From a bacterium (lineage in GTDB: Bacteria > Blakebacterota > Blakebacteria > Blakebacterales > Blakebacteraceae), in the NCBI GenBank assembly GCA_025774205.1, contig JALGWK010000110.1, positions 1 to 8,727 of the forward strand: 8,727 nucleotides of DNA. The letters are read 5' to 3'. How positions within the stretch are numbered: the first letter of the stretch is position 1; the number at the start of each line of letters is the position of its first letter. This document shows positions 5,087 through 8,727 of the stretch, in pieces. Below the pieces are notes generated by a model. It searched no databases. It saw only the letters and a list, made by a program, of their open reading frames with translations, and was not told where the DNA came from. Both the position numbers and the translations under genes were made by a program.

Positions 5087-7087
5087 TCAGCTCGCACCCT
5101 CGGGAAGGATGAGACGGTACGCCTGATCTCCCAGCTGGACCTCGACCTGTTCGCCGAGCGCAACGTATTGGCCCAACGACTCATGCAGGTCGAGCAGCCT
5201 TATGAACTCCCGGCTGCCGATTTCGACTTCGATGATCCGGGTTTCCGCCTTGATCGACTGATCGCGCCAGATCTGCTTCTCCCGGTCGAGCTGGAAGGTC
5301 CTCTCCCCCACCCGCTGAACACTGAGGAAGTCGAGCCGGTTGATCAGACTCGAGGTCTGCAGTTCCTGCTCGGCCACGCTCAGGGAGACGTCGCCGACAC
5401 CGGTCTGCTGCCGCGCCCCGGCCCTGCCTCCGTACACGGACGTCTCACGTGCCCGAACCTGCGCGAGCGCCTCATTCGCCATCCGCGCCGACGCCACATC
5501 CCGCTGGATCATCCGTCTGGCTTCTGTCGAGGGAGCCGCTACGGCCATCCGCTCCATCTCATCGAGGTCGTACATGTGCTCTTCGATCACGAGGTAGGCG
5601 GTGAAGGGAGTCACGATCCCGTAGGTCTCCCCCAGGTGCACCACCTCATCCTTCAGTTCGTCAGACTCGCCGTGGAGGCGGATCTGTTCGAGAAGGAAAC
5701 CCACCTTCCGCTGGGCCCACATCGGCGCCAGGAAGGCGGTCTCCGATTCGCGACGCGGGAGGGTGACCTGATGCCGGATTCGCTGTTCCCTGCCGTCTGC
5801 CCGGCCGGTCAGTCTCACCTCCGCCCGTCCGCTGCCCCGGTATCGTCCCATCACGGTGATCTCGGCACCTTCGAAGAGATCAGGGAGCCGGGCCGGAACG
5901 AGATCCCAGGTTTCGGCGCCGACGACTTCGATGGCCAGATCGGCCAGGACCGGGGTGCTGATCCTGCTGAAAAAGGCGCTGATCTTCACCTCCAGGTCCT
6001 CCATCGGTTCGACGTAGGCTGAGTGACCCCCGTGTTCGGTGGCCAGGCGATCGAGCAGGAACGAATTCACATCATACCCGACACCCCAGGTGAAGAGCCG
6101 TACTGATCGCGGCAGCCCCTCGCTCGCCTGCTCGAGGAGCGCATCGGGTTCGGTCTCGCCCACCGTGGGAAGACCGTCGGTGAGGAACACAACATAGGTG
6201 AGGTGAGAGCCGTCACCGTTCTCCTCGACCGATTCGGAAGCGAAATCGAGCGAAGCGGTGAGCGCCCCTTCGATATTCGTTCCACCCTCGGCAGCGAGCT
6301 GCCTGATGTATTCCCGGGCTTCCTTGTAGGTCACCAGCGCGAAACGATCGCGCCCACCGAGAGTGCTCAATCCGAAGTCGAGCGCTTCGATTGCCTGTTC
6401 AAGCTTGCGGTCCCCCCGCATCGATCCGGAAGTGTCGAGAACAAAGATGACATCGCGCGGCAGACCTTCCCGGCGACTGACACTTCCCGGGGTTATCGTC
6501 AGCAGGAAATAACCGTCTTCACCGGGTGGTCGATGGGTCAGCATGCCCATCCCGATCTCCTGTTGCTCACCTGTCCCATAATAGAGGGTGAATCCCTCAC
6601 GGCTCTGGAGCCGCCCCTCGGCGGAGAACTCCGCCCGGGACCCTTCCTCCAGATGTTCGACGCTGAGAGCATGGGTGGGTGAATAGATCGAACGGATCGG
6701 TCGGTCATCACGGATGGTGCCCTCGACCACGAACGAGGTGCTTCTCCTCCGCTGTTGCCCCTCCTGCCCGGGTTGGGTTCTCCTGACCTGACCCGTCTGC
6801 CGGTCGAGTGTCGGTACTATTCCCGGTTCCCGCAAAGCGATCATATCGGGCGGGGCTGTCATGGTGCCCTGTCCGGTGAGATAGCGGAAAACCCGGAAAT
6901 CCCCTTCCTTCGGAAGGATCTGGGCATAGGAGAGGGTCAGGGTGCGTTCCCCGCCCGGTTCGAAGGGGAAGATACGGGCCTGGAATACCCGGTTGTTGAT
7001 CCATTCGAGCAGCGCCGGGTCCCGGATCCGTCGTACGATGTCGAGATAGATAGATGTTCCTGGCCTCTTCCCGGTCGAGTACTTCAC
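5087..7087 (-). CDS. VIT/VWA domain protein, main C-terminal fragment (frameshifted)
   Basis: This is most of an exported protein resembling inter-alpha-trypsin inhibitor heavy chains. The nominal start, a GTG at 7087, is an artefact: true homology in this frame begins at about 7055 with YLDIVRRIRDPALLEW, the second half of a VIT domain. In the repaired 768-aa protein, VIT spans about 42-165 and a von Willebrand A domain about 312-490. The metal-binding MIDAS set is complete: D320-T-S-G-S324, T372 (GGTNIEG) and D406 (TDGLPT), so it can probably bind a divalent metal and a protein ligand. A conserved tail segment, HLGETYGIVTPFTAYLV, follows the VWA domain, and a second region ends in RLILPEGAS. 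I see no C-terminal anchor, LPXTG or PEP-CTERM signal. The likely role is adhesion or protein binding outside the cytoplasm; the partner is unknown. Hairpins at 4915-5001 lie downstream. Confidence 0.85.
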   Translation of the reverse strand: MKYSTGKRPGTSIYLDIVRRIRDPALLEWINNRVFQARIFPFEPGGERTLTLSYAQILPKEGDFRVFRYLTGQGTMTAPPDMIALREPGIVPTLDRQTGQVRRTQPGQEGQQRRRSTSFVVEGTIRDDRPIRSIYSPTHALSVEHLEEGSRAEFSAEGRLQSREGFTLYYGTGEQQEIGMGMLTHRPPGEDGYFLLTITPGSVSRREGLPRDVIFVLDTSGSMRGDRKLEQAIEALDFGLSTLGGRDRFALVTYKEAREYIRQLAAEGGTNIEGALTASLDFASESVEENGDGSHLTYVVFLTDGLPTVGETEPDALLEQASEGLPRSVRLFTWGVGYDVNSFLLDRLATEHGGHSAYVEPMEDLEVKISAFFSRISTPVLADLAIEVVGAETWDLVPARLPDLFEGAEITVMGRYRGSGRAEVRLTGRADGREQRIRHQVTLPRRESETAFLAPMWAQRKVGFLLEQIRLHGESDELKDEVVHLGETYGIVTPFTAYLVIEEHMYDLDEMERMAVAAPSTEARRMIQRDVASARMANEALAQVRARETSVYGGRAGARQQTGVGDVSLSVAEQELQTSSLINRLDFLSVQRVGERTFQLDREKQIWRDQSIKAETRIIEVEIGSREFIRLLDLHESLGQYVALGEQVEVQLGDQAYRLILPEGAS
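7044..7055. repeat. (AGAT)3 tetranucleotide tract at the frameshift site
   Basis: Three perfect AGAT units on the + strand (ATCT in the coding direction) lie exactly where the VIT/VWA reading frame breaks. With two units the codons read N-I-Y-L-D-I-V, as the family expects; with three the frame shifts by one. This is the pattern left by slipped-strand replication. Confidence 0.85.
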
Positions 7088-7397
7088 CCCGAACGGGAAT
7101 GCCGTCCATCGTCAGTCGGAAATCGGTCACCGCCGCGCCCTCAGGCAGGGGGAAGAGATAGATCCCCTCGGCCTGCCAGCTGTTGGGGTTGGCGAAGACC
7201 TGCGTCAGGGTTGAATGAGCCACCCCGCCCCGTATCTCGACACTCAGACTCGCCGAGGCCAGATAGATGGCGTTGGGATGGTCATGTCCCGGCGCGGGTA
7301 CGATGTGGACCTGTTGTCCAGAAGCGGCTGGAGAGGCGATCGCGAGACCCAGAATAGTCAGCGCGAGCGCCCGGACACGTCGTTTCCTCATGTACAT
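7044..7397 (-). CDS. VIT/VWA domain protein, N-terminal fragment (frameshifted)
   Basis: This is the front of the VIT/VWA gene. The start ATG at 7397-7395 has a strong GGAGG six bases upstream. Residues 1-27 form a signal peptide: basic MYMRKRRVR, a hydrophobic core, then ASPAASG before QQ. The first half of the VIT domain follows (about 42-117), with the typical VEIRGGVAHSTLTQVFANP and GEVLDREEARNIYL. At residue 117 the frame runs into an (ATCT)3 tract and is lost: it stays open to 6708, but residues after YL resemble nothing in the family, while the other frame carries on correctly. Taking one 4-base unit out joins the fragments exactly into a 768-aa protein. Confidence 0.8.
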
Positions 7398-7596: not shown

Positions 7597-8727
7597 ATGG
7601 CTGTGAAGCTGTACCGTAAGTCCGCCCTGGCGGTTCTGGTGACCGGGATCCTGTTCCTGCCATTATCGGGGACGGTCCGTGCCCAAGCGGGATCGTACGA
7701 TTCCTATCTCAATTTCGAAGATCTTTCGTCAAGGCTGCAGAATATCGCCGGGGCGCATCGTGACCTCTGCACCCTGGAAAGTCTGGCCACGACCGCCGGC
7801 GGAAGGGACCTGTGGCTGCTGACCATCGGTAATCCGAACAACGGGAACACAGATGAGAATCCCGCTCTGCTGGTGGTCGCGAACCTGGAATCGAATCATC
7901 TGATCGGCAGCAACGCTGCCCTTTTCCTGATCGACCAGCTCGTGAACGGCTATGGTACCGACCAGGCGATCACCAGTCTGGTCAATGCCCATACCTTCTA
8001 TGTGATCCCCCGTCTCAATCCCGACGGCGCCGAACTCTTCTGGTCGAACCCCGAGACCGAGATCCCCTGGAAGGGAGACCCGGAAGACGAAGACCGGGAC
8101 GGCAGCGCGGATGAAGACCCGGGTGACGACATCAATGGTGATGGCCTGGTGACACAGATGCGTGTCCGGGATCCTGAGGGGATATGGATGGTCGATCCCG
8201 ACGAACCGAGACTGCTCAAGCGGGCCGATCGCACCCGGGGGGAACGGGGCATCTATTCCATCTACACCGAGGGTCTGGATGACGACGGCGACGGTGAATA
8301 CAACGAAGATGGTCTCGGCGGTACCCATCTCAACCGGAACTGGCCCCATCAGTACCCCCATTTCCAGGATCACAGCGGGCTCAACATGGTCTCGGAGATC
8401 GAGACGAGGGCTCTGGCCGATTTCGCGTTCACGCATCGCAATCTGGCGAGGGCTCTGGCCGATTTCGCGTTCACGCATCGCAATCTGGCAATGACCGTCA
8501 CTTTCAGCCCCTATGACAACCTTCTCAAACAGCCGGAATCGAGACCGGAGCGCGCGGCGCCGGTGAACCTCCCCGAGGGCCTGGAACTTCCCCCCGGCAT
8601 GAGCATGGCAGATGTCATGGAGTTCTTCCGGGAGCGGAGCGCGCCGACTTCCGTACTGCAGCAGGACGCGCCCTACTTCCGCTTCATCTCGGAACAGTTC
8701 GTGGAGATGACCGGACTTTCGGGACAG
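7597..8727 (+). CDS. noncanonical M14 zinc-carboxypeptidase-like exported protein (3' end outside window)
   Basis: The first 377 residues are present, open to the window edge. Start: ATG 7597 with GGGGGAG just before it (short spacing); in-frame ATGs at 7585, 7564 and 7549 are possible but would lengthen the N-terminus. Residues 1-30 form a signal peptide cleaved near TVRA/QAG. The fold is M14: ICxLE-SLATTAGGRDLWLLTIG, then LLVVANLESNHLIGSNAA, FYVIPRLNPDGAE, HLNRNWPHQYP (244-254) and SEIETRALADF. Between 161 and 242 is an acidic insert with calcium-loop-like DEDRDGSADED, DDINGDGLVTQMRV and DDDGDGEYNEDG, typical of one subfamily. In standard carboxypeptidases zinc is held by HxxE and a later His in HSYG. 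Here the first motif reads E98-S-N-H101, reversed, and the later site reads VTFSPYDN without His; the N-R of NRN (246-247), which binds substrate in the family, is kept. Activity is therefore uncertain. A 14-residue duplication (271-298) is also present. Confidence 0.85.
   Translation, partial: MAVKLYRKSALAVLVTGILFLPLSGTVRAQAGSYDSYLNFEDLSSRLQNIAGAHRDLCTLESLATTAGGRDLWLLTIGNPNNGNTDENPALLVVANLESNHLIGSNAALFLIDQLVNGYGTDQAITSLVNAHTFYVIPRLNPDGAELFWSNPETEIPWKGDPEDEDRDGSADEDPGDDINGDGLVTQMRVRDPEGIWMVDPDEPRLLKRADRTRGERGIYSIYTEGLDDDGDGEYNEDGLGGTHLNRNWPHQYPHFQDHSGLNMVSEIETRALADFAFTHRNLARALADFAFTHRNLAMTVTFSPYDNLLKQPESRPERAAPVNLPEGLELPPGMSMADVMEFFRERSAPTSVLQQDAPYFRFISEQFVEMTGLSGQ
8405..8488 (+). repeat. exact 42-bp tandem duplication inside the M14-like gene
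   Basis: Copies at 8405-8446 and 8447-8488 are identical in all 42 bases. The duplication is in frame and gives RALADFAFTHRNLA twice (residues 271-284 and 285-298), in the helix that follows the SExETRAL motif. Identity at every third codon position means it is very recent or an assembly artefact. Confidence 0.95.

Follow-up and report, generated by a model that had tools for sequence, protein, structure and literature searches.

A predicted bacterial M14 pseudopeptidase encoded beside an intact M14 paralog

The locus and its M14-like gene

The window, the whole 8,727-nucleotide stretch of DNA that was analyzed, makes up the entire contig C356 of its source genome. The ATG at position 7597 starts an M14-like gene whose frame is still open at the end of the window, which holds 377 of its 619 codons. 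Contig C306 of the same genome opens with a 114-base exact overlap to C356 and carries the gene on to a stop codon at C306:841-843, giving a protein of 619 amino acids whose general-base position is encoded in the C306 half, outside the window. The part of the protein encoded in the window matches the Pfam family Peptidase_M14 (PF00246) with an E value of 3e-29, compared with 2.7e-30 for an ortholog from a genome of the same genus, and gives no match to NCBIfam. The AlphaFold model of this ortholog (75% identity, pLDDT 89) superimposes on carboxypeptidase A (2abz) in VIA-align with a Z score of 32.1 and an rmsd of 2.2 over 274 residues, and the fold predicted from it is that of carboxypeptidase A. 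Together, the profile match and the ortholog model assign the window protein to peptidase family M14 on grounds of descent and fold. The features of the gene are as follows.

7597..8727, continuing at C306:115-843, plus strand: predicted M14 pseudopeptidase gene (open reading frame and 114-base exact contig overlap)
7597..7689, plus strand: probable signal peptide (MAVKLYRKSALAVLVTGILFLPLSGTVRAQA), from reading of the sequence
7888..7899, plus strand: E98-S-N-H101, at the zinc ligand positions H69 and E72 (profile alignment)
8017..8028, plus strand: NPDG fold motif, kept (sequence and alignment)
8332..8337, plus strand: N246-R247, at the N144/R145 positions, kept (alignment)
8405..8488, plus strand: 42-base perfect tandem duplication, two copies (RALADFAFTHRNLA) (sequence and ortholog alignment)
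8506..8508, plus strand: S304, replacing the third zinc ligand H196 (alignment)
8515..8520, plus strand: D307-N308, a motif new to the pseudopeptidase clade (alignment)

The reading of the N-terminus as a signal peptide suggests that the protein is probably secreted. The tandem duplication, which is absent from the same-genus ortholog, adds 14 residues directly ahead of the strand that bears the H196 position and is either a recent event or an assembly error. Two other genes in the window look broken. A von Willebrand factor A protein with an N-terminus judged VIT-like by eye occupies 5087-7397 on the minus strand in two overlapping frames (6708-7397 and 5087-7087), and since its homolog at locus L026, which lies beside a related gene, is in one frame, the split is an apparent frameshift. 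A probable secreted beta-propeller-like lipoprotein at 33-1365 on the plus strand looks split into frames 33-410 and 433-1365, the second of which has no match in Pfam.

The zinc motif is encoded by GAA at codon 98 (7888-7890, Glu) and CAT at codon 101 (7897-7899, His), in the context LLVVAN-L-E98-S-N-H101-LIGS. In the alignment of the family profile with the solved carboxypeptidase T, E98 falls on H69 and H101 on E72, and the ExxH that the first-pass annotation had read in place of HxxE is therefore in register with the first two zinc ligands. The same loss extends to the remainder of the catalytic site. The profile alignment puts Ser (in the window protein) or Gly at the H196 position, located after a Phe, and Pro at the E270 position, so that the three zinc ligands of catalytic M14 enzymes, H69, E72 and H196, are all replaced (by E, H and S) together with the general base. 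The pair N144/R145, which binds the C-terminal carboxylate of the substrate in M14 enzymes, is present as N246/R247. Under the mechanism established for the family, peptidase activity is not to be expected of an M14 protein in which the three zinc ligands and the general base are all missing. As all four residues are lost, the window protein should neither bind a catalytic zinc nor hydrolyze peptides. An M14 fold under selection with replaced catalytic residues and predicted inactivity would make it an M14 pseudopeptidase.

Relatives and the adjacent intact paralog

The reversed motif is widely shared. The same-genus ortholog reads E-G-N-H, and ExxH is found in 66 of the 109 distinct relatives that were tabulated from at least seven phyla; this rules out a sequencing error as its cause. 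A scan of GTDB genomes contributed 80 loci, with records labelled Bacteroidota, Acidobacteriota, Aminicenantes, Gemmatimonadota, KSB1, Verrucomicrobiota, Planctomycetota and Sumerlaeota, among others. The OTbin.62 record (L090 / L192) is labelled Actinomycetota, a label that may be wrong. The scan used two search patterns, and as one of them contained ExxH (the second did not), the 80-locus set is biased for the motif. Pattern-free profile searches of whole genomes, which are without this bias, give ExxH in 20 of 37 members and Glu at the first position in 30 of 37.

A maximum-likelihood tree of 115 rows, computed quickly, unrooted and with some long branches, omitted the four motif columns. 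A single branch (SH-aLRT 95) parts all pseudopeptidase members from all HxxE members, and with the motif columns excluded this split is independent of the motif itself; the pseudopeptidase members are one clade. Relatives with HxxE, which the first-pass annotation had proposed to look for as a sign that the reversal was a local oddity, do exist, but they are the adjacent paralogs, and the members of the clade carry ExxH or a further-eroded form. The outlier L023 has RxxE and a very long branch.

The gene immediately downstream on C306 encodes an M14 paralog with HGNE, SWHN and NELW, in which H69, E72, H196 and E270 are all present; the partner model superimposes on carboxypeptidase T with a Z score of 38. 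Additional HxxE paralogs are found on other contigs of the source genome, and the same-genus ortholog is followed by the same partner gene. Wherever the DNA downstream of an ExxH member could be read (57/57; the remaining 9 of 66 stop at contig ends), the following gene is an intact M14 gene in the same orientation, so that catalytic and non-catalytic homologs are encoded together in an arrangement like that of M16B peptidases. In the scan loci the two genes share a strand and the pseudopeptidase gene always precedes the HxxE gene, and the downstream neighbors have HxxE...H...E in all cases where this can be read. For six ED/DD members no M14 gene was found in the downstream stretch first examined. 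Further reading in five genomes located a same-strand partner one gene away or past a gap of about 2.2 kb in G154, G155, G107 and G146, and met the contig end in G150. One pseudopeptidase gene has no partner within the 1.5 kb that remain before its contig end. The pseudopeptidase and partner genes are separated in some genomes by a further gene, for example an HtpG-like one. Loci L190, L194, L195 and L196, all of one phylum, have an HtpG-like chaperone gene between the M14 genes or next to them, and the pseudopeptidase gene is sometimes missing. No neighbor family indicative of a wider conserved operon occurs in more than 7 of the 80 loci, and shadow ORFs make up most of the top clusters.

The pairing is also seen in gene content and in descent. 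Of 82 genomes from one phylum, both genes occur in 27 and neither in 50, while 3 carry the pseudopeptidase alone and 2 the partner alone, a co-occurrence with a Fisher p of 4e-16 in which related genomes are not independent. The distance matrices of pseudopeptidases and partners are correlated (Spearman 0.87, 64 pairs); shared descent accounts for part of this correlation, and congruent trees are expected from descent alone. In each of the two pairs of the same-genus genome, both partners sit beside the corresponding relatives in their own half of the tree. A fusion of pseudopeptidase and active M14 domains, as proof of contact, was sought and none was found.

Among the alternatives to an inactive partner subunit, the one that survives best is a secreted protein acting on its own, which would bind the C-terminus of peptides or cell-wall stems and share no more than a transcript with the enzyme. 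It would account for the retention of N144 in 81 of 86 and R145 in 76 of 86 clade members, and for the few members without direct adjacency to an enzyme gene. The near-obligate adjacency to, and co-occurrence with, one specific M14 paralog argue against it, as does an arginine invariant among the partners (probably R127) that is not conserved in the pseudopeptidase clade, and we regard this account as unlikely.

Residue variation and selection in the clade

The positions of the former catalytic site differ in how far they vary. Glu at position 69 is kept in 76 of 87 members, and the motif in the 109 distinct members is ExxH in 66, ExxD in 18 and ExxQ in 7, with few of the remaining forms; the residues at position 72 are H, D, Q, R, T and Y, a range hardly compatible with a metal ligand. 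The H196 position is nearly always Gly, Ser or Cys (71, 28 and 4 of the 109), and the E270 position is not Glu in nearly the whole clade, with Pro in 50, Asn in 14, Arg in 12, Lys in 8 and Gln in 7, and also Ser. Three residues past the lost H196, Asp-Asn (D307-N308) replaces the Gly-Gly of the active partners, and its two residues are kept in 80 and 82 of 85 members. On the tree, position 72 changes at least 11 times within the clade while Asp-Asn is kept. A salt-bridge replacement (Asp at 72 with Arg or Lys at 270) was also considered; it occurs in one large clade but, with only two independent pairs on the tree, is not significant.

The first-pass annotation had proposed that the exchanged Glu and His could hold a metal in a changed geometry, and a rearranged site of E98 and H101, perhaps with D307, for a different metal would fit the frequent Glu at position 69, the prevalence of ExxH and the new Asp-Asn. 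A position 72 that varies even to Arg or Tyr shows that the Glu/His exchange is not a conserved metal site, the more so as H196 and E270 are lost almost throughout and Asp-Asn stays constant through the changes at position 72. With Arg, Thr or Tyr at that position and the third ligand missing, this was dropped as the leading reading, and we give it only a slender chance. The proposal of a divergent M14 subfamily holds, with ExxH kept across much of the clade, and a non-catalytic role is likely; the part that lacks support is altered metal use.

A comparison of the two genomes of the genus gives a dN/dS of about 0.11 for the pseudopeptidase gene and about 0.09 for the partner, rough figures since dS is above 1 and near saturation; the pseudopeptidase gene is under purifying selection. 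A decaying pseudogene or local sequencing oddity, which the tandem duplication and the two other apparently frameshifted genes of the window might suggest, is hardly credible given this selection, a 619-codon frame open across two contigs and the recurrence of the motif in dozens of genomes from several phyla, and is refuted for the family as a whole.

Another M14 paralog type (L013 554-2479, L029 75-2018) keeps HxxE and has Asp at the H196 position (TYDTT/SMDTS) and His-Arg-Asn in place of NRN. It is possibly a second altered-ligand group, unpaired at these loci.

A probable inactive partner subunit and its known counterparts

Because the gene is so strictly paired with that of an intact paralog, a role as partner subunit suggests itself, and the window protein is probably a secreted, catalytically dead M14 pseudopeptidase that serves as a subunit of the active M14 enzyme encoded downstream. 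The two-gene unit would yield the pseudopeptidase and a canonical M14 paralog, and the pseudopeptidase could stabilize or regulate its active partner or hold the peptide substrate, at its C-terminus and via the kept Asn-Arg pair, in the manner of the non-catalytic subunit of two-gene M16B peptidases. Judged by the alignment, the tolerance of D, Q, R, T and Y at position 72 together with the retention of N144/R145 and Asp-Asn makes the pocket look metal-free and possibly peptide-binding. The two proteins would form a physical complex, although two secreted proteins that act in one process with no contact would also be consistent with the gene order and co-occurrence. A more far-reaching possibility, put forward tentatively, is that M14 peptidases of two subunits are widespread in bacteria, and that their obligate inactive subunit, typically ExxH, would hold the peptide C-terminus and complete or regulate the active site of the adjacent catalytic paralog, making them the M14 counterpart of the M16B pairs.

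M14 is among the best-studied metallopeptidase families, and a dead clade that selection maintains, in at least seven bacterial phyla, beside an intact paralog offers a testable case of a pseudoenzyme retained alongside its active partner. It is also a warning, as automatic annotation (Pfam 'Zinc carboxypeptidase') labels such pseudopeptidases as enzymes. M14 pseudopeptidases are already known, as are active/inactive bacterial pairs in M16B. Searches of the open-access literature turned up no bacterial M14 active/inactive pair, although such searches do not prove that none has been described.

Comparison with known systems sets the window protein apart from each of them. It resembles the M14 carboxypeptidases T and A in fold (Z 31-32, 274-292 aligned residues), NPDG and N144/R145, and carboxypeptidase T also by a sequence profile match (E 7e-25). 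It differs from both in the replacements H69 to E, E72 to H, H196 to S and E270 to P, in an Asp-rich insert, and in an extra C-terminal domain within its total of 619 amino acids. In the two-gene M16B peptidases, the catalytic subunit works with a homologous partner, and the genes are adjacent in bacteria (PMC11266112, PMC12731061). In the M14 pair, as in SPH2681/SPH2682, TTHA1264/TTHA1265, AlbF/AlbE and the mitochondrial processing peptidase, one gene encodes the catalytic protein and another its homologous partner. However, M16 (HxxEH) is unrelated to M14, and the heteromer is proven in M16B and inferred for the M14 pair. The M14 entries in a review of metallopeptidase pseudoenzymes are only AEBP1 (AEBP1/ACLP), CPXM1, CPXM2, CPD-III and Ecm14, all animal or fungal, and its table shows that these proteins keep H69 and usually E72 and have R145 changed (PMC11266112). 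The window protein shares with AEBP1/ACLP, CPXM1, CPXM2, CPD domain III and Ecm14 an M14 fold with replaced catalytic residues, and is unlike them in the exchange of H69 and E72, in its retained R145 and in its bacterial gene, which is paired with that of an active paralog.
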